64,000 nt of DNA from Isoetes taiwanensis (lineage: Eukaryota > Streptophyta > Lycopodiopsida > Isoetales > Isoetaceae), in assembly GCA_021234155.1 (NCBI GenBank), contig JAJEKV010000080.1, forward strand, positions 1,100,182 to 1,164,181, in the 5' to 3' direction. This document shows positions 34,420 to 62,770 of the stretch, in pieces. The notes beneath the pieces were generated by a model. That model was not told where the DNA came from, did no database searches, and saw nothing but the letters and a program-made list of their open reading frames with translations. The translations under genes were made by a program, and so were the position numbers. Positions within the stretch are counted from its first letter, which is position 1, and every line of letters starts with the position of its first letter.

Positions 34420-35598
34420 TCACGAAATCTCCCCTCGCATTAGATGCAAAGGTTTCGATTTAGCCCAAAAATCTCTAGGAAAATGCTGGAGTTCTTGTGC
34501 AAGCTTCTCTTGCCATTCCTTTTCCCATATCCTTTTTTTCCTTTTTGTGATCTTCTTAAATTTCTTTCTAGCATCCAGTTTTGCATATGACTGATAGAAG
34601 GCACGCCTGGCTTCTACACATTCTTCATCCCACCACGGTTGGCATTTTCTTAGGTGCACACCACCTTTAGTCTTTCCAAAAACACTAGAGGCCACTGCAT
34701 ACATTGTATTCATAAGCAATGTATTTTTTTCTACCAAATCTCCTGACCAGTCAATATCTTGAAGAGCTTTCTCTAATTCTATTGCATAATCTGCTGCCTT
34801 TTTCCATCTGCACTTTACCTTACCCTGTGGGGCGCTTTTAATACTTGCTTTGCTCAGCTTTAAAGACAGATTGAATTTTAATGCAGCATGATCTGATTCA
34901 GGTTCTGCCTCCACTCTAAAATCATCTACGAGCCTCAGCCAAGCAGGTTCTCCCACTAGATAATCCACCACACTAGCCCCTTGTGGTCGAACACAAGTCA
35001 TGCTGCAAGAGGAGGGAAATTTAGGTATACCATTCAGAATTACCATTTCAGAAGCCTCGCAAAGCTGAAGCACAAGATTACCCATATCATTTTCCACCGT
35101 ATCGTCAGATAATCTTTGCCAACCTGCTAATTTCATCTCATAAGCGGATAATTCCTGCAACCATAAATCTCTTATCCCTTCCAATTTGATACCTGCTTGG
35201 TGCTGAGCAATCCGACCATTAAAATCCCCAGCCAAAAACACTGGTCCTTTCAATTTAAATTCAGCAATGTCACGTGCAAGATGTATAAATGGATCTTCGG
35301 CAGTAATACCTGATTGGTTGTATACAGAACTATCTGGAGGAGCAAAATATACCACTGCAACATAAACCACAGTTTGCCCTCTAATTTCTAGCCACATGTA
35401 TTGTTTAAATTCACATGTTTTGACTACTTTTATCATTTGGGCATACTGCTGGCGCGCATAACAGGCAATGCCACCAAAGCCTCTGCCTCTTCCCGTGCCT
35501 TTTATATTCCATACTGATTCTATCAGTGCAAAACCTGGTAGATTTCCCAATCTACTAGTCTCATGTTCCCATGTTTCTACAATGACAAACAAGTCCAC
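34420..35598 (-). pseudogene. LINE APE-type endonuclease
   Basis: A 392-residue open frame contains the endonuclease/exonuclease/phosphatase motifs: the VETWEHE metal-binding Glu region, FGGIACYARQQ, VFLAGDFNGRI (Asp and Asn), SVVDYLVGEP and a C-terminal SDHAALKFNLSL with the catalytic His. This domain nicks target DNA to prime reverse transcription. After it comes a basic linker leading into the RT. The frame is intact over the domain. Confidence 0.8.
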
Positions 35599-36070
35599 TG
35601 TTTCTAAAATTGATGCAATCGTAACTTGTTTCTGTCGCTCAAACCATTAATATTCCATATCATGCACCGAGGGTCCCGAGTTCCTATTCATCACTCTTAG
35701 CCTGTCCTCCGTTTTCTTTTATCCACAACCTTGCCTCCTTGAATGTATGCATGCTTTCCTTTCTTTATACGCCGCATCTTTTGCAATTTACCCTTAAATT
35801 CCTCTTCTTTCTTCTGAAAGTTAAATCATCGTTTAACCAAAGATTACGTCCTTTCAAAGACACTCTTGTTAAACATGACTCGTTCGAACTTGCAAGTTTT
35901 GAAACTTAATTATGATTGGCCTCGGTTTACCCATTTGTTTTTTTTCCCACACGGAAACAATCCGACAAAACCGAGGATCATGTAGGTGCATTGTATTCTC
36001 AAAAAGTCATTCCGGCTTTTTGTCACATCTACTTCTTCTTCGAAGGCGGCGACTTAATATTCATTAAACA

Positions 36071-39170: not shown

Positions 39171-40052
39171 ACTTAACGCCATTTGGGCACTAAAGGAATG
39201 GTTGGAAATACTTTGCCCCAACCATATCTAGATACCCTAGAAGGAGGTGAGTAATCAACAATGGTTGGGTGGCATTGGATTGTACGGGAGAACAGCTCTA
39301 AAAGAGGGTAGACTGCTGTCACTTTGACAGGCGTGTGGTACAGATAATTAATGACATCCATATAGATGGTGAAGTTTGGCACAAAGTGTTGACAATATTG
39401 TGGGGGTTCTAACAATCACTCACTACGTATTACAGAGTTTGTACCGTGGTCTGGGAAAATGGTCCATAAAAAGAACACGACCATTGGGAAGAAGTAGTGA
39501 GGAGTGGTAGGATGAAAGCTACCCATGGTCTAGAGGGGTGCTGCATGGCAGTCCCTAGTTGGTTGGGCGAAAAGAAATCCTTTCTCTAGGAAATGAGACG
39601 AGTCAAGGTTTAGACACTAGAGAGAGATAACGTTAATTATAAATATGTCTATAAAACATTACTTATATAACGTCGAATAAGGTCTAATATAAAGCATATG
39701 AATGTAGTATGGATTGAATCATGGCAAGGGCCGAAGAAACTGTGTTATCAAGGCATCTACCAAAGGACAATAATAATTAAAGTTATGGATCGAGGAACGC
39801 CGATAACTGGACATTATTATCGTCGCCTAAAGAATATCCAAGGATATAACACATGCTGCTATTCTAGAGAGTTGCCCTGTCGTTAATTAAATTCCGGAAT
39901 TAGTCCCACCAAGTGAGTTGATGTTATCATAACAAGTTGGCCGGACTTGCTAGATTACGTCGTGTCATTTGGTCGGTTTATTCCTAGGGGATACTAGCTT
40001 TATATATGGTTAACAGTTATCCGGTTGACTATGGCAGAGAAAGGTCAACTCC
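39171..40052. other. LTR element interior, no recognisable coding
   Basis: No supported frame. Confidence 0.4.
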
Positions 40053-40187
40053 CGTGGCCATGGCAAGAGTGCTTACTCCGGCGGCTATGGCGAGAGAGCT
40101 TGCTCCGGCGGCTATGGCGAGAGAGCTTGCTCCGGCGGCTATGGCGAGAGAGCTTGCTCCGGCGGCTATGGAGAGAGAGCTTGCCCT
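40053..40187 (+). repeat. 27-bp minisatellite, about five units
   Basis: The unit ggcggctatggcgagagagc plus ttgctcc recurs with a strict 27-base period (starts at 40080, 40107, 40134, 40161). Because 27 is divisible by 3 it stays open in several frames (for example ARELAPAAM repeated), which explains the overlapping open frames here. No real protein is claimed. Confidence 0.88.
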
Positions 40188-40264
40188 GGCGGAGTTGCTG
40201 CCTCCACTTCGTGGGTTTACCAAAGGCACGGCTCTAATTTTAAGATATAGATGCATTATAAATA

Positions 40265-51042: not shown

Positions 51043-51054
51043 TGGTATCAGAGC
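51043..51054 (+). promoter_or_regulatory. tRNA-iMet primer-binding site of copia element
   Basis: tggtatcagagc, one base after a likely LTR end (tttcttaca at 51033-51041) and 14 bases before the gag ATG. The LTR start is not resolved; it cannot extend left of the LINE TSD near 50911 unless that LINE is nested in it. Confidence 0.8.
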
Positions 51055-51068
51055 AAGGTTGAGATAAA

Positions 51069-51590
51069 ATGGCAAGCAGGTTTGGTGCAGGACTGCTAAA
51101 TGCAGTTGATGTTTTTAAGGGAGACTCTGGGTTTCAAGTCTGGAAGGAGAAGATGAAGCATGTGCTACAAGTAGAGGACTTGTGGGACTTGATAGAATTA
51201 CATGAAGCAAATGGAAATATGAGGAATACTGCAAGCGGAACTATACCTGTTGCAGAAGAAGAAAGTGGATCTTCAAATGAAGAAACTGTAGGAATGCAAC
51301 CACAAAAGATGAGCATGACTTCAAGGAGAATGGTGTATACAGATAGTGCAAAGGTGAGAGAAGCACGAAGAATCATTATGAGTAAGGTGAGCTCCAGTAT
51401 AGTCCTAAAGCTAAGAGATATGAATCCTAGTCAAATGTGGAATTATATGCTTCTCACTTGAAAACTTCATCACAATTAGACGTGCTGGAAAGTGAATTAA
51501 GGAGACTAAAATTTCATGATAAAGATAATGTCAATGAGTTTTTCCCAACCTTTGACAACATTATTGCTGACTAAAGGGTTCAGGAGTTCT
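51069..51590 (+). pseudogene. Ty1/copia gag, truncated
   Basis: 130 residues starting MASRFGAGLLNAVDVFKGDS, then GFQVWKEKMKHVLQVEDLWD and REARRIIMSKVSSSIVLKLR, the N-terminal region of copia Gag. After a TGA at 51459-51461 the neighbouring frame continues TSSQLDVLESELRRLKFHDK and DNVNEFFPTFDNIIAD, the expected next part, so a one-base shift broke it. It then ends in unrelated DNA. It is the same type as the minus-strand copy at 10932-11324. Confidence 0.8.
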
Positions 51591-52496
51591 TTATACACAA
51601 CAACCGCAGGTTTTAGAAATTTCAAGAGCAATAGCCTGTCTTGGAAGTGTAGGGGTGTAAATTTTTGGAAGGTTTATTTCCTTAGGGTTTATGGTCTTTT
51701 TTTCCTTTTTTTTGCAAATTCAAGTTAACCAGCAATTTACCCGCATCATCGTAGCCCCCACAACATTCTGATAACGAGAAAGGTTTAACTAACTTCCACT
51801 TCTTGATATCATCCTCAAACATGGTGATATTTAACTTGATATTAACATCGATATCAAACCTTTCGATTATTAACAATACGATGTCGATGGTACAAGGTAA
51901 ATTGTACACGATAGAAGGAAAAAAAACTAATGCTACAAGATAAATTGTACACCATGTGATCTACATATTAACTAGGAAATCAAGAGAACAAAAAAATATA
52001 ACAAAAAATAAGTGCATGGCTAGATATGAGGATAAAAATATCGCGAATAAGGGGCAATGTAGCCATGCATTTATATGATCTGGATGCAACATTTTCTCTT
52101 CTGCAATTCCTCAATCATGCGAACGCAACATTGATGCCTATATTTATGCTTACATTGATGCCAACAACCAACATTGATGCAAAGAATGTTACCATCGAGA
52201 TTAAGCTTCGAACATTTGCCTATTGTAAATTTTTTTACTGTAACATAAACCCTGAACTCACCCTAAACCCGGTACTGGTAGTTCCGGCCTGGACCTGCGA
52301 TCCAGCAAGGCGATCCTTGCTTCCAATTTTGTGCAGGTGTGGGAGTTCAAATCACTATCTCTATTTCTGCAGATTCGTAGGGTCGACCACTATCACTATC
52401 TCTGGTTTTGATTTCCGTTTGCGAATCCCTGTTTGCAGTGTTGTAAATCACTGTTTTTAAGATTGGTTCAGAATTGGACTTGAGGAAGTTGGAAAG
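51591..52496. other. No gene recognised
   Basis: The open frame 52026-52460 (144 residues) has biased, repetitive composition and no domain I recognise. Confidence 0.4.
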
Positions 52497-53204
52497 ACTG
52501 TGTCAGAATGGAAATTTGAGAAGGAATGGAAATTTGAGAAAAACCTTGCAGAGCCTGTTTTACGATCTGAGGTTGGAGCATTTATTGTCAATGGCTGCGA
52601 TTATAGAAGAGGCCACGGTGAAGTAGTATTTATGCCATTGATCCTGTTGAACCTGGATTGTTTGCTTGCTAAACTATATGAAGGAATCAGCAAGACAGCA
52701 GATTGATGAATGGTTGGTTTATAATAGAGCTTCATGCTTTCGCTCATATTTACTGCAGAGAGTGGTTTGAATAGCGCATGACTATTAGTGACCATGTTAT
52801 GCATCTGCCTCAACGATAGCAAGACTGCATTTCCTGGACTTGGATCAGCCATCACAGCTATTGATACTACGTTTGATGGGAAGTGGGTTCTTGCTATTAC
52901 AGATAATTATTTAATTCTTATTAATACCACTTTCAAGGACAAGGATGGAGAGCTTAAAACAGGGTTTACGGGTCGCATGGGAAACAAGATTTCTGCTCCT
53001 AGGCTGCTGAAGCTTACGCCTATTGATGCATATCTTGCCGGAGAGAATCAGAACCTAGCCCCTAATCTTGCCGGAGTGACACAGTCTTTCCATTCTGACA
53101 CAGTCTTTCCAACCCTTGTCAAAGACATATCATCATTACATCGTTTTGTATTTAACTTCATAATCCAGAGACATTTTAACATTACAGGTCAAAGGACATC
53201 TTGA
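52497..53204 (+). pseudogene. VID27/CYPRO4-like fragment
   Basis: Two pieces of a plant VID27-family (CYPRO4-like) beta-propeller protein. 52497-52545 reads SEWKFEKEWKFEK, an internal duplication of the family's SEWKFEK. 52788-53204 reads [60 protein letters not shown]. The sequence diverges after LAGENQ, ending in unrelated residues. Most of the protein between the two pieces is missing. No introns are evident within the second piece. This is a broken relic of a normally conserved single-copy-like gene; the functional copy would be elsewhere. Confidence 0.75.
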
Positions 53205-53561
53205 ATCAGTCAATGTGGATCAGAATTATTGTCACTGCTAGTTGAATATCACGAAGTACGACCACAGAAGATTATATTCTTCAAGGTAGGTTCACACGCC
53301 TATATCTTGTATAACTTGTTGTTTGGTCTCAATTTTTAATGTTGTGATAAACCTGAAAATGGAAGCTTTGAAGCTAGATAGCTTGTCCTTTTATGAATGT
53401 GAGCTGAACTTTGTGCTTTACTATAAATGACATATATTGCTGAAAAAACATTGCTTCATAGAGAAAAAATCAAAATAGAAAGCTTCATAGAGCAGAAATC
53501 AAAATAGATAGCCCTAAACCATACTATTATGTACTGAAAAGTTCATATCTAATATGCATCC

Positions 53562-56500
53562 TTAAACACGGGTCTTCATAGGAGCAAACCTTCCTAACAG
53601 CATATTCAAATACTCTTTTGAAAGTACTAGTTGGGTGGGGGAAATGTCATTTCTGGGATCAACTCCTAGGACGTGACAGATGACGTAGGGGAGGTGCTTG
53701 CATGGCACGTACTTCTTTTTTTTCTCATGTCCCATATAATCAGCACATGTGCAAGGAGGCATGCGATTGATAGAAACTCTATAAGTTGCAGTAGGTCTTT
53801 TAAGATGGAAATCCACATGTTGTGAAGGTATGACCACCTCAATCATCTCCACATCAACTTCCATATGCATGGCATCATCTAATCTGGCCATGACATCATG
53901 TGCTAGTTGCTTTCGCTTGTACATCCTTTTTCCAAATCTAAGCATGACACTGCTAGCAGTTTCTTGTGTTGCCTGAGTTGATGGCATGTCTATGTTAGGC
54001 ATGCCATTCATATTAACACCACGAATGGTGTATCCTCCTTTTTCCAACCTTCTTAATTCCCCTTTCAACACTGGCCAATCCCTTGGTCGTTCAGGTATGT
54101 CTAAAAGACACTTTTTGGGATTCCAAGTATGCTCCATGTGATCTGGACAAAACCATATCCATTGCCTACTTTGTCCTTTTGGATGTACAATAGTACCATA
54201 GTAACTTGGAGCAGCTGTGGCATGAGGGCCAGAATTTATAAAGGCATTGCATTTTTTATTGCGTGGCTCTTTTAGGCCCTGGCAACGAGCTTTACTTGTA
54301 GCATATGTGTGTCTAATTGCCCAAGAGTTATCTTCTACCTGTATTTCACAGACATTGAACATAATTCCAAAGTTTAGTGTCTTTCTTGTATCATCATCCA
54401 CTACAAATCTTGGACGATTATAAGCAAACTTGTCTGGTCGGTGAGAACCAGAATTACTATTGTTATATTCAACTGAAGATCTACATCTCTTCAAAACTGT
54501 TTTATCATTTCCACCAGATGTTGGTGGTCGAGTTGGAAGACCACATCTGATAGTTTCAGCATGAACAGCCTCGACGCATTTTCTAGGGGTAATACCGCTA
54601 TTGATGGTCGAACTTAATCGTGCCATCATGTCTGTCACACCTGGCCCAACACCGACATAATGTTTGTCACTGTATGCCTTGGCTTTGGAGCATTGTAGCA
54701 CAGCCTCAGTAAGGTCAAACAGGCATGCATCATAAAGATTCAAGGTACGCTTGTACCCGGTCGCTATCAACCAACTTCCATGTCTTGATTCAGAAAGATT
54801 AGTACTAGGTACGTGAATTGCTGCACTGATGTCCTTCTCTGATATCATATAATTACCCCATCTGGAAACTCTCTGATGCCACCAAGATAACCAATTAGCT
54901 AGACAAGGTAAATTACTTTCAGAAACTTTACCTGGCCACCAGTCAATGATTTCATTATAAACTGACTCTGCTTCCTTTGCTGTCACACATCTTTGCCATT
55001 TCGTACACAAGGATAAATGGGCTGATCTAAACTCTTCAAAGACGTATTTGTTTGTATGTCTTTGTAGGCATTGATGGAAATGGAAGACACAATATCTCTC
55101 CCGACCAGTCAGCTCTTGACCATTGTTATATATTTCTTGAATTGCATTCCAATTCGCTTGTGCCTTGTCTGCCATAAATCCATAAAATTGAGGAGGTTGA
55201 AAACCCTTTGAAAGCATGATCTTATTTATTTTTTTCCAAAACTTCTGCTGGGCCAGACAATCCTCTGTCTTCATCTCACATGTGGCTATGGTTAGAAGAG
55301 ACCGCATCCTACATATGTTGACATTGCATTAGTAGTTAGTATACATGAAATCAACAATTGGAGTGACAGATACAATGAACTTACCCTGGATCATAAACAT
55401 GGCAAGCCAAAGTAGTCCACCCACTTATTCGCTTCACATGGTCAAAGTGCACCCATGATTTGCCAAGATCTCCACCAGGCCTCATCCTATTCACCAGGTC
55501 CACACCAGAACCTGGTCCTGTAGAAGACATCTTAAATATGTAGCAATTTTCCATCTCATTTATGTGAAGTTGATGTGAGAACTTAGATCCCCAAAAATAC
55601 TGAAACTTGCAATGTTGCTTGAGATAGATAATTTTATTATAATCATCTGATCCAATCTTGCAATTGTCCCGACACTTATCTATCCATCTCCTTAGCCTGT
55701 TAAACTATCAAAAAAGTTAGGTTTGGACATGACATAGAAATTATTACATATGGTGAAATATTTTACACTCAATACCTGGATTGATTGCACAGTGGTTCCA
55801 GCTTTTCTAGAAACTCCTCGACCTGCTTTTTATCCCATGTCTGGCTCTTCTCAATGTCAGCTTCAGATATCAAATTCTTACTTACTATTTCAAATGCTAT
55901 CTCATGTTGTGTTTGTCTTGGCCCAACTCGATGGCCGCCTTTGGCATGTGTCTCAACCAAGGCACGAACGCTTGCAAGTTCTTCTCTACTGGCCGCGACC
56001 TTAGTCGGATGCAGGTGTTCCCCAATGTGAAAAGCAAGTCTTGTATGTGTATCATTCTTTGTGAGGCAGTAGTGCATAGTGACAGGACATTGTGATATGC
56101 ATACTGGTACTTCCTTGCAATATGCACAACAAAGGGATCCATAGAACTCAGGAATTTCTCCAACATGCGGCCTGGTCTTGAGGCTGCCCTTCCAATGAAC
56201 TTCATTTTCTTCCACATGTGAGAGATAGAAATCACATGATGGATTTAGACATTTTAGATGACCACAACAGTATGAAAGTCTTACAACCCCAGGGAATATA
56301 GGAATGGTAGTATGCGACGGGTCAGTCCATATATGGGGATCCATATTTTGTTGCATACCAGCCATTGTAGACCATGCATCTGAACGGGGTGGTAGTTCGA
56401 AGACTACATTGCCATTACAATGGGGTGGCAATGTTTTTACAGATAGAGGCTTCTTTACTAAATGAAAGAAATTTTTTAATTTGCTTCCCCCAATACTATT

Positions 56501-56907
56501 CAAAATTAGTTGGAAACTGGAGACAATATTATCACCCTTGCTACCTTGATTAGATGACGGTGAAAGAACTGGTATTGGGGTGTCAACTGTATTCACAAGA
56601 ACTGGTGCTCCAAACACTGTAATGTTGGTTCCAAAACTTTCGTGAAATTCAAAAATCAATTCACAGTTATCATTCTTTTTTTCTTTCACAACAGTTGTCA
56701 ATTCATCTGCACTCTCAGATGATTTAGATTGCACTACACACAATGACCCTTGTTTGAATCCGAAAGACTGGCAAATAAGACTTGCACTAACCTCGCATAC
56801 ACCTTTAGAAAAAGGAACTTGAAGACTATGGCGCTTACCAAGAGATGTGATAGAGATAGATGATCCATAGTAGCTAGCTTTGGTAATGCGACAAAGTATG
56901 AATGAAT
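53562..56907 (-). CDS. MULE-like transposase with SWIM zinc finger
   Basis: Three minus-strand exons join in phase at GT-AG sites: 56907(?)-55776, 55696-55385 and 55308-53562, about 1050 residues with no break. The first holds a Cys/His region, SYCCGHLKCLNPSCDFYLSH then CCAYCKEVPVCISQC and FHIGEHLHP, like the WRKY-GCM1 type fingers of Mutator-like transposases. The middle reads SWVHFDHVKRISGWTTLACH; the third starts with MRSLLTIATCEMKTED, then FYGFMADKAQANWNAIQEIY and RYCVFHFHQCLQRHT. Those Asp residues are plausible parts of a DDE centre, but the final Glu is not assigned. Near the C-terminus, PPCTCADYMGHEKKKK then YVPCKHL is a SWIM finger (C-x-C...C-x-H). The start is unresolved: the frame is open upstream to an acceptor at 56908-56910 and an earlier exon is likely. 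Its neighbour is the divergent methyltransferase gene. Confidence 0.72.
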
Positions 56908-57462
56908 CTGTTTCCTTTTATTAACTGTACCACTACGAAATATGGTAATTACAATACGAATTTTGTTATGATATTATTTTTAATTGGTGGCACATTGCAT
57001 TTTCGTATTGCTTAAAGATATCACAGATAAAATTAATTATTGGGGTTATACGAAATATGTTTGAGAAATGTTACAAAATTCACTATTTTAATATTTATAT
57101 AATATTGTTTTTATTTTTTGGTATAGTATTTAAAGTTCGAGACTACTGAAGGCTTGTTGTGGTATCACAGTATGCTAAAGGCGCTTCACTATCCCTCAAG
57201 GTAAACGGAATCATCTTCGTTATGCTTGTCCAGTAACTCAAGTAGGTGAATTTGTCCACTAACTCAAGTAGCTGTAGATTAGTTTGGTAGATCAATATAG
57301 ATTGTTGATCATTTGTAATCCCTCAATTAATGAATTATTATAATTCTTTTGTAAATGTTCTTTCAATTTTTTTTCCTAGTGTTTCCAGTTTTTCTTTCAA
57401 TAGTTCTTTCAAACGTTTCAAAGTTTGAATTTATAATACGATTTTTTTTAATGATGTATTTT
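56908..57462. other. Divergent upstream region
   Basis: AT-rich DNA between the transposase and the palindrome array. It may hold non-coding or short 5' exons of either gene; none could be fixed. Confidence 0.35.
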
Positions 57463-58165
57463 TGGGGCTGCGGCGCCATAGCCCCTAATTATGCTTAAAA
57501 ACTTTGTAGACTTGAAATTATAAAAGTAAAATTTAAAAATTATCAATTTAATATTTGAATATTAAATTTTTAATATAATTTTTCTTAATGATCTATTTTT
57601 GGGGCTGCGGCGCCATAGCCCCTAAATATACTTAAAAAATACGAATTTTAAAATAAAAAAACAAAGTAATTATTAATTAAATTTATAAACTTATAAATTT
57701 TTAAGTTTTTAGTTTTAATGGCGAAACTGGGGGCTGCGGCGCCATAGCCCCTAATTATGCTTAAAAAATACGAATTTTAAAATAAAAAAACAAAGTAATT
57801 ATTAATTAAATTTATAAATTTATAAACTTATAAATGTTTAAGTTTTTAGTTTTAATGGCGAAACTGGGGGCTGCGGCGTCATAGCCCCTAATTATGCTTA
57901 AAAAATAAGAATTTTAAAATAAAAAAATAAAGTTATTATTAATTAAATTTATAAATTTATAAACTTATAAATTTTTAAGTTTTTTGTTTTAATGGCGAAA
58001 CTAGGGGCTACGGCGCCATAGCCCCTAATTATGCTTAAAAAATAAGAATTTTAAAACAAAAAAACAAAGTAATTATTAATTAAATTTATAAATTTATAAA
58101 CTTATAAATGTTTAAGTTTTTAGTTCTAATGGCGAAACTAGGGGCTGCGGCGCCATAGCCCCTAA
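57463..58165. repeat. Six-unit array of GC palindromes, about 135-bp period
   Basis: The motif ggggctgcggcgccatagcc plus cc recurs six times (centres near 57475, 57611, 57741, 57878, 58015 and 58151) with minor changes (cgtcat in unit 4, ctacgg in unit 5). Each has a GGGGCT/AGCCCC stem around GGCGCC. Spacers of about 110 bases are extremely AT-rich and are homologous to one another in units 2 to 5 (cgaattttaaaataaaaaaa, tttttagttttaatggcg). It occupies the divergent promoter space of the transposase and methyltransferase genes. Confidence 0.9.
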
Positions 58166-58340
58166 ATATGCTTAAAAATAGGATTAGAAAGAAAGATTAT
58201 AAAACGATTTGATATTAAAATAAGAAAGATTATGGATATACTTGTTATTTTTCAATTTTGTGCTTATTTAACTGATATTGTTTTCTCTTCTCAACAGTCA
58301 CTGCAGATGCTGCTATATTTGTGGATGTCAACATCTTGGT

Positions 58341-61300
58341 ATGGTGTCAACCCGTACTGATCCAAATTATAAGCAAGCAGTTTGGACACCACCAAAAAGA
58401 AGAAAGAGATTAAAAAAATTACCTTGTGAGTTGTCAGAAAAGATGTCTGAGATGGAAGTCAGTATCGAGAGAAATGTAGAAGAGACACAAGAGACAAGCA
58501 TGACTGACAAATCTGATGTTGATCCTAGCGCATTAGAGGCGTCTGCGGAAACACAGACTCCTTTACCAATTTCACAGATTTCTAAAAAAAACAAGGACAA
58601 GAAAAAACAAGTAGATGCACTTGATGATCAGACCCTAGATGTAGTTGATGCTGCATTTACTGCTGAAATTGTGTCTGATTTATTGCAACAGGTAAGAATT
58701 AGCAGGGCTACTCCACCACCTCTTATACCTTTGTGTAGGATATTGAAGCATGAGGCAGTTAGAACTGTTGCATCAAATACGTCCAACATGAAAGAAACTT
58801 TTAGAAAGGATGGATACATTATGGAAAAAGGGTCTTTCATTCTATCAATACTAACTCCACGTCAGGAAAGCATACCAGTGGATGATGGGATTCTAGCAAG
58901 TTGGTTGGAGACAAGTAAATGATGCCTTTGAGGAAAGCATTTTACAGTCTGAAGATTGGAAAGATCTATCAGGTAAAATGTTTCTGTGTTGGGATGGCAA
59001 TCATAGAGCAGCTGCTTGGATGCAAGAGATTAAGTGTCACTATCAGTGGAACGCAGACAAGCATGTTTCTGTTCATGCAACTTTCATTGACATAGATCAC
59101 TCTCAAGAAACACCTCTTCTAGCTGCCTTGAATCGAATAAATGAGTAAGTTTTTCGTTTAATATACTTTTGCTAATTCGTGTAGTGTTTTTTTCCATACT
59201 AATTTTGTAGTTCTATAGGTTGAATGAAGTGGGTGTAGTTCGTACTACGCTGAAAGACACATTGTTCAGCGTGCATCGAGTTGCAAATTCAAATCCAGAG
59301 AAGTATGCTGAACGCCTACGTGCTGAATTTTTAAAGTCCTTGAGGTCCAAGGAGAGTATTTCTACCTCAAGTGGCAGTGCAACTGAAGCATGGTATCCAT
59401 TGACGCGACTTGCATATGCCAAGATATTATACCAGGTATTTCCTTTCTTTGTAGTCTTTCAAGTTTTTAATTTACCACACACTTGGATTCCTACTGACTA
59501 TGAATAATTCATATAGCAAAACATAAACAGAGATATTGAATTGGAAGTTAAGAGTTATCCATCAATCAAGGAAAGCCCTGAAGAGATTGAAAACATTTGT
59601 AAAAGGAAAGTGTATGAAAGATGGCAACAGAAATTAGGAAAGTATTTGGCTATTCTAAATCCAGCCTTGGGGTTAAGTTGGTTAACTGCTGTGACAACTA
59701 TGGAAACACAATCCAGACACATGAAAATAACAGTTGAAAAACTGTTAGAAATGGTGAAGGCCAAAGTCCCAAACAATGTTAGAGACAGATGGATGCATTG
59801 GCTGACATCAGGAGCTGCCTTGACAAGTACATACATGATTCCTGATAATGATAAGCAGTTCAGGGAATGGGTGAAAAAGGAAACTTGGCTTGAGCATGTG
59901 CTAAAGAGGAGCTTGGGCTTTTATGAGAGCACAAAAATAGACTTCGACTTGACCTTGGATGTGCCAAGAGGGGAAGACATAGAAGGTTGGTTCCGGAATT
60001 TCAAGCTAGATTATCGAAAGGAAATGTTTAGTACTATTGAGAAGCATATGAGTTCAACCTTGCCCTTCACCGAGGCCTATGACTTGGACAAATGTGCTAT
60101 GCGAGTTTGTTTCAGGTACTGATATTCAATATTTTTACATGCTTTTTTGTCTAGAATTTATAACTTTGATTTTTAATTCAGATATTACAAGCACATTGTC
60201 AGCAAAGGCTACGCAGTTTCTCTACCAAGGGAGATGACTTCTTGGAATAAAAAAGAAGCCCCAAAAATGTTTTCTAAGTACAATCTAGATAGAAAAGGAG
60301 GTTTATCTAGCTATGAATATGCTAACTGCCCTTGGTGGATTGATTTCCCAGATGGAAAATATCCTAAAGAAGAGGAGGAAGAATGGAGAAATCAACAGGT
60401 TGGTAACAAGTCTGGAAGGGAAAGCTTGAATGCCAACCATGAATCTTTCGGAGAACAGTCACCAGTATCGAAGTCCAATACCAATGCCAATATAAAAAAT
60501 GTAAGAGCTGCAAAAAGGAAACGAAAATTGGTATTGCAGGATGAACATGAGGACATTCTTACAAGTGCACAATCAGAAGGTGAGCATTCATACAAGCATT
60601 CTACTTTTGTGTGTAATGTTGATTTGGAAATGGAAGTAGGAGATGTGGTTGAGATGTGCTCTTTACTTAAATCAAGAAAGGAAAGATTATTCAGTAACAT
60701 GAGAGAGTTTGCAAAGAACCATTGCAGGTTGTTCAATAAAATAAAATTGCAGAGAAATGGTAAGTCCAGGGATTGGGGTTTAGATTTGGTTGTAATTGAT
60801 TTACCAACCAATGACATGCCCTTGCCAGGAATGAGTGTGCCGGAATGGAACTCCTGTAATGAAGATTTGGTTGATGCATGTCTGACTATTGGGAACTTGT
60901 GCCTCAATGACTCAAGCTGGTTGGTTATTATATGTGCGGATGATGAGTCTATGATGGTGAGGTCTTTTGCTATTAAAAATAATCTTGTCATCTCTCGCAA
61001 ATACACTTTGATCTATGATAAGCCCTTTGGTTATAAAGAAGATAAATTGGGGGTTTTTGAGGCAAATAACCTGGATATTTATATCATCGCACGAGATGGT
61101 AAGTCCCCTACTTTTCATTGCACAAAAGGGTTTATTGTGGGTAAGATGGAGCATAACAGGACCGTATTGAAGCAAAAGATCTGTGATTGCACAAGCCGCG
61201 GATTGCTGACAGGTGATATTGTGAACACTCTGTCATAACATTTGAATTTTTATTGGATATGTTGTGTCCAAAGGAAGGCATTGTGGTTGACCTTCTTGCA

Positions 61301-61718
61301 GGGACAGGATCATTAACAGAGGCATGTGCTAAATTTGGTTCTCACTATTTTGGTATTGAGAAGGAGGACACTTGTTGATTTTGTTAAGAACAAAAGACTA
61401 TCTAGAATTTTCGTGCAGAATGAAAATATAGAAGTACATGCGGAACCGATTAAAAATTCTAGTGGACTCATCTCTACCTTGGGAGCTGAATTGGAAGAAC
61501 CCGAATAGTAAGGTTGATAGTGTCTATCTAACTTTTATTATATTAGTTATTTGCCTCCATTGCCATCACTGACATAATTTTGTTTTCCTTGTAGTTCATT
61601 GCCTATCTATGCGGAGAGAGTGGCTATAGCAATGGCCTTAGAATCTTCCCCAGAAATGAAGGAATGTGGCAAGAGGAAGACTTCTATTTATGTGGATGAT
61701 GAGTGTGTTGAAGAGTAA
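58341..61718 (+). pseudogene. ParB/Srx-like domain fused to N6/N4 DNA methyltransferase, frameshifted
   Basis: Five exons: 58341-59144, 59219-59435, 59517-60115, 60182-61507 and 61595-61718. All junctions are GT-AG and phase-consistent, giving about 1022 residues. Basic PPKRRKRLKKL near the start and AAKRKRKL later look like nuclear signals. Residues about 125-300 resemble a ParB/sulfiredoxin fold, with LIPLCRILKHEAV and MFLCWDGNHRAAAWMQEI (G-x-H-R motif). A helical middle is unrecognised. The C-terminal part has methyltransferase motif IV-like LVVIDLPTNDMP, WLVIICADDE, a KPV-like HSVITFEFLLDML, then motif I VVDLLAGTGSLTEA and FGIEK. Motif IV before motif I is the class-beta amino-methyltransferase order. 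Frameshifts: one extra base near 58915, one missing near 61221, one extra near 61366. The product as read is dead unless these are sequence errors. Nuclear DNA modification is the inferred role; adenine versus cytosine is undecided. Confidence 0.75.
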
Positions 61719-62206
61719 ACAATACACAACTTACTTTTCTTTATTAGCAATACATTGAAGATAAACTATGCATCCTTCTATTACATATCCACTTCCTAAC
61801 TTCTTATTAGTAATTTTGAATACTATTTCATTACATCTTCGTTAAAGTTGTTCTTCATGAATTCCTCTTTTTTTTTTTCGAAAGTGTTATTCCTTTTGCA
61901 AATGTCATCGTTATTTAAATTTACTTTGTTAACAATTGTATTCTGCTAAATTACATCTGTACATTAAAGTAAGTGGCTTCATTCTTTAAAGTAAGTGGCT
62001 TAATTTTTTAAATTTACTTTGATAACTATTATAACGTAATACAAGAACTATGAGTATTACACAGTACCTAATTCGAGTGCACCATGCTATCAATGTTAAG
62101 TAACTTATTTTTTAACAAAAAACCTAAAAAACCATGAAAAAAAAAACCTGGCTTTGAAAATCCCCGAAGTGTAGCCATATTCATAAGAACCATAGCCAAA
62201 ACAAGG
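61719..62206. other. No gene recognised; short tandem repeat
   Basis: The 3' flank of the methyltransferase gene. A 22-bp unit with aaagtaagtggctt occurs twice at 61966-62010. No terminal inverted repeat was recognised. Confidence 0.4.
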
Positions 62207-62770
62207 ATGGATGCTGAAAGAATATTGAAAACAAAAATAGACCAGAGTAAGGTTATGGAAGATAAGGAAGCTTCCCAAATTCTGTTTGCAAAAGGTAAAG
62301 GCAACGACGAAAATAGGAAAAGAGGTAAGCTTGGTAACTGCAATCAGTATGGGCGCTTGAAAATTGACTGTCCTTCAATGACCAAAGAGATTAATTGCTA
62401 TAATTGTGGGGGGATCAAATTGTTCATCTCCTAAAATTGCATCAAGAGGGAGAGAAAAAGGAGGAAGGGCAAATTTAGCAGCTAGGGGAGAGGAAGGGGA
62501 AGATTCAGAAACACAAGCTCAGAAGCAAATATAGCAGAGGAAGTGCGACTTGAAGAAGACAGTACAGGAGAGGAGGATGAGGATGAGGATGAGGTAAGAA
62601 AGCACATAGTTTTTTTTGCTAGTCATGACAAATTTGATGACAATGATTTTCTAATTTTAGATAGTGGAGCAGAAAAGTCCATTGCATGCAACTCAAAAAT
62701 CCTGAAAGAGAAGAAGGGAAGCCAAGGTGGATATATTCAAGTGGGCAATGGTGACTGTTGAGGGTAATCC
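62207..62770 (+). pseudogene. Ty1/copia gag zinc knuckle and protease fragment
   Basis: Successive frames encode GNCNQYGRLKIDCPSMTKEI and INCYNCGG (degenerate CCHC knuckles), an acidic stretch EEDSTGEEDEDEDEVRKH, and FLILDSGAEKSIACNSKILK, the aspartic protease active-site region (D-S-G-A) of copia polyproteins. Frame changes and an immediate stop after VGNGDC show it is dead. No RT or integrase follows. Confidence 0.75.

Follow-up and report, generated by a model that had tools for sequence, protein, structure and literature searches.

A methyltransferase-like gene carried by a candidate Mutator-like DNA transposon of Isoetes taiwanensis

Introduction

The closest described counterparts of the gene reported here are algal. 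In the excerpted text of PMC12477816, the Ectocarpus transposon Sola1-1_Ec32 carries, on the strand opposite its transposase, a gene for a 1104-residue protein that combines a ParB-like part with a methyltransferase; the same excerpt refers to Iyer et al. 2011 and Petroll et al. 2025 for counterparts in green and red algae, and proposes as a possibility that the algal ParB-methyltransferase proteins bind the very transposon that carries them and modify it. No further transposon-borne ParB-plus-methyltransferase protein appeared among the literature matches listed, and Iyer et al. and Petroll et al. could include plant cases. ParB-methylase fusions occur in phages and bacteria too, and a nicking activity is noted for a bacterial one in the excerpted part of PMC5512222.

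A second line of comparison is provided by the VANC proteins of Arabidopsis VANDAL transposons, which, according to the excerpts, remove silencing (PMC5735166; PMC10398659), bind motifs repeated in tandem in the non-coding parts of these elements, and carry the domains DUF1985 and DUF287 (PMC5735166).

Here we analyze a gene of the lycophyte Isoetes taiwanensis in a 64,000-nucleotide stretch of DNA, referred to below as the window. From the nucleotide sequence, an original prediction had read this gene as an acquired, five-exon plant gene joining a ParB/Srx-like domain to a class-beta amino-methyltransferase, an architecture without a described plant family. The latter point agrees with the literature matches listed, among which there is no plant case, the cases reported in the excerpt of PMC12477816 being algal. 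Transposon-borne proteins of the ParB-plus-methyltransferase kind are already known from algae; what is new is the setting in a plant genome, the Mutator-like 9-bp duplication and the conserved array of sites.

Results and Discussion

The gene lies in an insertion

The methylase-like gene is part of a DNA insertion and not a free-standing host gene (Table 1). The inserted element is bounded by two perfect copies of the 9-bp sequence GAAGTGTAG and interrupts a copia gag, the start of which, upstream of the insertion, is recognized as DUF4219 (E 4.9e-6, just below the cut-off) behind what we take to be a tRNA-primer-like site at 51043, and the remainder of which includes a zinc-knuckle-like stretch (weak matches only). 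With one copy of GAAGTGTAG kept and the insert removed, the gag frame is open for 113 codons over the junction (27 before it and 86 after); a second frame is likewise open, over 61 codons, and the gag has two frame shifts of its own upstream of the insertion. A 9-bp match was also obtained in 53 of 2000 shuffles of the two border stretches. Since neither the duplication nor the open frame is decisive alone, place, repeat and frame must count jointly. Both ends of the element start with GGG, and terminal inverted repeats were found neither by end-to-end alignment, the best score of which (19.5) is below the 95% value of 200 shuffles (21.5), nor by an ungapped scan at a score of at least 15. A target-site duplication of 9 bp is typical of Mutator elements, and the non-TIR MULEs are without terminal inverted repeats. 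The gene that had been predicted to be an acquired gene of the plant genome is better read, given this 9-bp-flanked insertion in gag, as accessory cargo of a DNA transposon.

Table 1. Positions in the window of the element, its genes and its borders
Feature	Positions	Strand	Remarks
copia gag, split by the transposon	51043-51652 and 62175-62760		
Target-site duplication (9 bp), left copy GAAGTGTAG	51644-51652		perfect match to 62166-62174
Inserted DNA element	51653-62165		10,513 bp; bounded by the duplication within copia gag
VID27-like (WD40-like) gene fragment	52782-53201	+	inside the element; PF08553 VID27, E=9.3e-13
Transposase-like gene	53562-56917	-	at least 3 exons (56917-55776, 55696-55385, 55308-53562); residue pattern only
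Site array	57464-58178		six copies of the 22-bp near-palindrome GGGGCTGCGGCGCCATAGCCCC, between the two divergent genes
Methylase-like gene, exon 1	58341-59144	+	NLS-like basic stretch; GNHR within the putative ParB-like region; frame break (+1) near 58911
Methylase-like gene, exon 2	59219-59435	+	
Methylase-like gene, exon 3	59517-60115	+	
Methylase-like gene, exon 4	60182-61507	+	linker and methyltransferase-like domain; frame breaks near 61230 and 61370
Methylase-like gene, exon 5	61595-61718	+	C-terminal ~40 residues and stop
Target-site duplication (9 bp), right copy GAAGTGTAG	62166-62174		

The five-exon gene of the original prediction stands as regards its exons and its four GT-AG introns (74, 81, 66 and 87 nt), and falls short in that the reading frame is not continuous: three breaks interrupt it, the second of them -1 or +2 and the third +1, and the spliced length of 3070 nt is not divisible by 3. 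A by-eye reading of the gene sequence found no GT-AG intron that removes the breaks. One candidate, GTGATA...GGAAG at about 61213-61276, was rejected because it would remove ITFEFLLDMLCPKEG, which is partly inside the PF01555 match described below; another, the exon 1 donor CAG/GTAAGA combined with an AG directly before the second reading, was rejected because it hits a stop. When the breaks are read through, the joined segments give 1023 residues with zero internal stops, in which GNHR is at 219, DLPT (the motif IV position) at 746 and LAGTG at 913; this last is the center of motif I, VVDLLAGTGS, encoded at about 61283-61312 in exon 4. NLS-like stretches are KRRKRLKK at 19 and KRKRK at 651. 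Because of the three frame breaks, this copy of the gene probably does not function, unless its sequence contains errors, and the full-length protein may not be made from it.

The methyltransferase part

A resemblance to amino-methyltransferases is evident at motif I. The last 291 residues, with the breaks read through, match PF01555 (N6_N4_Mtase) at E 3.2e-5 with 24.4 bits, slightly below the curated cut-off of 26.7 bits, and the match spans profile positions 171-219 of 221, i.e. motif I only; it is kept at E 1e-4 when the whole joined protein is used, for which PF01555 and PF16050 are the only Pfam families at E up to 10. PHROG 3008, 'DNA methyltransferase', matches the same part at E 6.4e-6, and the best NCBIfam match is CcrM (E 0.01). 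Searched as four single-frame pieces, the gene gives no Pfam match in three of them; the piece from exon 4 stops short of motif I and matches only CDC73_N (E 0.0096, below the cut-off).

Motif I also carries the comparison with phage proteins. Against a ParB-methylase profile built from all 85 of the phage and viral loci (L001-L085), the whole protein scores 10.5 bits, above all of 200 shuffles, the transposase-like protein of the same element scoring -1.7. The whole-protein score exceeds the shuffles because of motif I alone: the motif I segment reaches 17.6 bits, a value attained by none of 5000 shuffles (best 6.8), and the segment from motif IV to motif VIII, at -0.9 bits, is matched or exceeded by 228 of 5000 and is not beyond chance. 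Alignment by hhalign with four phage proteins likewise picks out motif I, at E 0.0026 and a probability of just 11%.

Class-beta amino-methyltransferases have the catalytic motif IV (D/N/S)PP(Y/F/W), which 84 of the 85 ParB-methylase proteins from phages and viruses contain; it is absent from the corresponding place in the Isoetes protein, where DLPT is read, and for this reason catalysis by the methyltransferase-like domain is doubtful. The class-beta order is supported by position: motif I lies ~110 residues from the C-terminus, after the motif IV place, and since only those ~110 residues follow it, the remaining half of a Rossmann methyltransferase would have to precede it. Thus the predicted class-beta amino-methyltransferase is borne out at motif I, by PF01555 and PHROG 3008, and by its order along the chain, and is called into question by its non-canonical motif IV.

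Among PDB sequences the methyltransferase region has six matches, the lowest E being 0.068; two of the matched chains carry the name Methyltransferase and align at motif I, with E 0.85 and 0.91. In tblastn of the region against phages, among the 20 of 297 records listed, the smallest E is 0.07, for terminase genes, and DNA methyltransferases appear at E 0.3. In viral contigs, searches with exon 4, with the transposase and with the ParB and methyltransferase regions gave no confirmed relatives, nor did a search of a genome contig collection with exon 4.

The putative ParB-like part

The N-terminal part of the protein is a putative ParB-like domain on account of its order of elements, which in the region around WDGNHRAAAWMQEI can be read by eye as that of ParB/Srx: strand-R-helix-G-strand-GNHRxxA-helix-strand. 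Scores do not distinguish the segment from chance. Against the phage ParB profile it obtains -1.0 bits with a 40-residue insertion cut out and -1.4 bits uncut, and these values are equaled or exceeded by 1791 of 5000 shuffles and by 2800 of the same 5000, respectively; excising the insertion gave no gain in ParB matches. Pfam, PHROGs, NCBIfam and PDB sequences yielded zero significant matches to the region (unrelated ones only, at E of at least 0.14), hhalign gave no significant match to the four phage proteins, and both records listed by tblastn against phages stand at E 7. All 85 phage and viral profile proteins read GHGR where the Isoetes protein reads GNHR. Structure prediction, which had been proposed as a check, was poor for the ParB region: AlphaFold2, given the region alone and without relatives, returned a pLDDT of 41. 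The profile searches with joined exons that had been proposed with it recover an amino-methyltransferase at motif I and no ParB/Srx, and the predicted ParB/Srx-like domain, lacking statistical support, comes down to a GNHR seen by eye.

The transposase-like gene and the site array

On the opposite strand of the same insertion, and divergent from the methylase-like gene, is a transposase-like gene whose reading is uninterrupted over 1066 codons and a stop; its first in-frame Met is only at codon 185, so a further upstream exon is likely. By eye, the protein has zinc-ligand-rich stretches, D466, D532, a CxxH at 558 and E658 in this order, and toward its C-terminus a SWIM-like CxC..CxH at 1004-1023. 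Because Pfam, at E up to 10, gave no MULE or SWIM match (unrelated families only, at E of at least 0.11), membership in the Mutator superfamily is something that we infer, from the residue pattern together with the 9-bp duplication, and we refer to the product as a presumed Mutator-type transposase. The VID27 fragment in the element is possibly a captured piece of a host gene. A perfect 27-nt inverted repeat, GTTGGAAAGACTGTGTCAGAATGGAAA, is present at 52488-52514 and 53087-53113, its two arms lying near and within this fragment.

The stretch between the divergent genes holds an array of sites, internal to the element and away from its ends. The 22-bp unit GGGGCTGCGGCGCCATAGCCCC is palindromic at 18 of its 22 bases, and its copies, spaced 129-137 bp apart, are each embedded in a 38-bp conserved core. 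The window contains six sites with at most one mismatch to GGGGCTGCGGCGCCATAGCCCC and elsewhere none with up to three; 100 shuffles produced 0 sites. In the six cores, 36 to 38 of the 38 bases agree with the majority. Conservation is concentrated there, as can be seen from the outer copies scored against the majority of copies 2-5: copy 1 agrees at 38/38 core bases vs 53/106 outside the core, and copy 6, read to 58200, at 37/38 vs 13/32. The observed-to-expected ratio of CpG reaches 1.6 in the array, against values of 0.46 for the element and 0.51 for the window, and two CpGs are kept in every one of the six cores; this retention is a hint only, since it concerns one locus and a short array with a GC-rich core.

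Comparison with described systems

By its description in the excerpt of PMC12477816, the Sola1-1_Ec32 protein shares with the Isoetes protein the status of a DNA-transposon gene placed opposite the transposase, the N4/N6 methyltransferase and the approximate size (1104 vs ~1,020 residues); a ParB-like part is claimed for the former and possible in the latter. Unlike Sola1-1_Ec32 as described there, the Isoetes element has a 9-bp duplication and a SWIM-like transposase, of Mutator-like and not Sola1 kind, a plant genome as its host and an array of 22-bp sites, and its protein has an unconfirmed ParB part and a degenerate motif IV. With the phage and bacterial ParB-methylase fusions (PMC5512222, in the excerpt) it has in common the claimed ParB-like part and an amino-methyltransferase in class-beta order. 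In the four phage proteins that we aligned the methyltransferase is close behind the ParB part, whereas a linker of ~450 residues separates the two in the Isoetes protein; the phage proteins have GHGR and mostly (D/N/S)PP(Y/F/W), against GNHR and DLPT here, and only motif I aligns. A prokaryotic-type amino-methyltransferase in a eukaryote is also seen in rotifer N4CMT and the Marchantia 4mC methyltransferase (PMC8885841, PMC12344493); those, as the excerpts present them, are host genes, whereas the Isoetes gene is transposon cargo.

Like VANC in the excerpted accounts, the Isoetes methylase-like gene is a transposon-borne accessory gene; unlike VANC as characterized there, its protein has neither DUF1985 nor DUF287 (Pfam, E up to 10). 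VANDAL elements are of the Mutator type, and we know of no methyltransferase domain in VANC.

Proposed role and alternatives

The explanation toward which we lean, with somewhat more conviction than doubt, is that a Mutator-like DNA transposon of 10.5 kb, lodged in the copia gag, carries the gene as an accessory and that the gene's product is a self-marking or anti-silencing protein. The protein of ~1,020 residues would consist of a putative ParB-like N-terminal part, a linker and a C-terminal class-beta amino-methyltransferase-like domain; it would enter the nucleus, bind the near-palindromic array between both genes and mark or shield the element's own DNA or chromatin, and the expression of the transposase would thereby escape silencing by the host. 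It would be a functional analogue of VANC and no homologue. The marking or anti-silencing mechanism is unproven. A more specific version, in which a plant Mutator-like transposon has its own DNA-marking system whose ParB-methylase recognizes the 22-bp array and writes 6mA or 4mC, so evading the 5mC-based silencing of the host, seems to us unlikely; if true, self-marking by 6mA or 4mC would be a second anti-silencing strategy, evolved independently of VANC. By analogy with the nicking activity noted in the excerpt of PMC5512222, a nuclease role is possible as well.

That the gene is a host gene, taken from bacteria or phages and now a stand-alone epigenetic enzyme in the manner of rotifer N4CMT or the Marchantia 4mC enzyme, would suit its introns, its NLS-like stretches and its methyltransferase match, and the capture of bacterial amino-methyltransferases by eukaryotes is on record (PMC8885841 and PMC12344493, as excerpted); its location beside a transposase-like gene within 10.5 kb of inserted, 9-bp-flanked DNA, the breaks at three places in this copy and the degenerate motif IV make such an origin very improbable. 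Rather less improbable, if still on the unlikely side, is a catalytically dead methyltransferase domain that serves as a DNA-binding or scaffold module only, in which case the protein would be an anti-silencing or transposition co-factor that does not mark DNA. The DLPT without a P-P-aromatic catalytic motif and the failure of the motif IV-VIII segment to match the phage profile point in this direction; the well-preserved cofactor loop of motif I points the other way, and in a single copy the state of the whole family and the decay of that copy look alike.

Two further doubts concern the parts that would recognize DNA, and each falls only a little short of an even chance. The tandem array could be unrelated to the methylase-like protein, being a promoter repeat, as its place between two divergent genes might suggest, or a binding site of the transposase itself. 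Transposases of the Mutator type often bind repeated sites; the sites of this array, however, are internal and lie away from the element's ends. Comparably open to doubt is the ParB reading: the N-terminal part could be an unrelated domain with a GNHR by chance, as the lack of a significant family, PDB or hhalign match, the profile score within the shuffles and the uniform GHGR of the phage and viral proteins would have it, against the by-eye fit of the element order and the recurrence of the same domain pairing, with opposite-strand placement, in the brown algal transposon (PMC12477816, in the excerpt).

For the transposon accessory gene that we favor, the candidate target, i.e. the six conserved 22-bp near-palindromes with their retained CpGs, makes the function of a transposon methylase open to a test of binding and methylation. 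If other copies confirm the gene, prokaryote-type methylase cargo, already reported in algal transposons, would be present in a Mutator-like element of a plant as well, and the finding would be relevant to claims that plant DNA contains 6mA and 4mC.

Other features of the window

The remainder of the window contains, on the minus strand, a single open reading at 828-1751 that matches the legume-lectin domain PF00139 (E 2e-59) and a LINE-type endonuclease domain at 34423-35646 (Exo_endo_phos, E 2.5e-5), and further minus-strand readings between 7.3 and 33.4 kb are LINE-like by eye only. A 27-bp tandem repeat of 5.3 copies lies within an open reading at 40049-40192.
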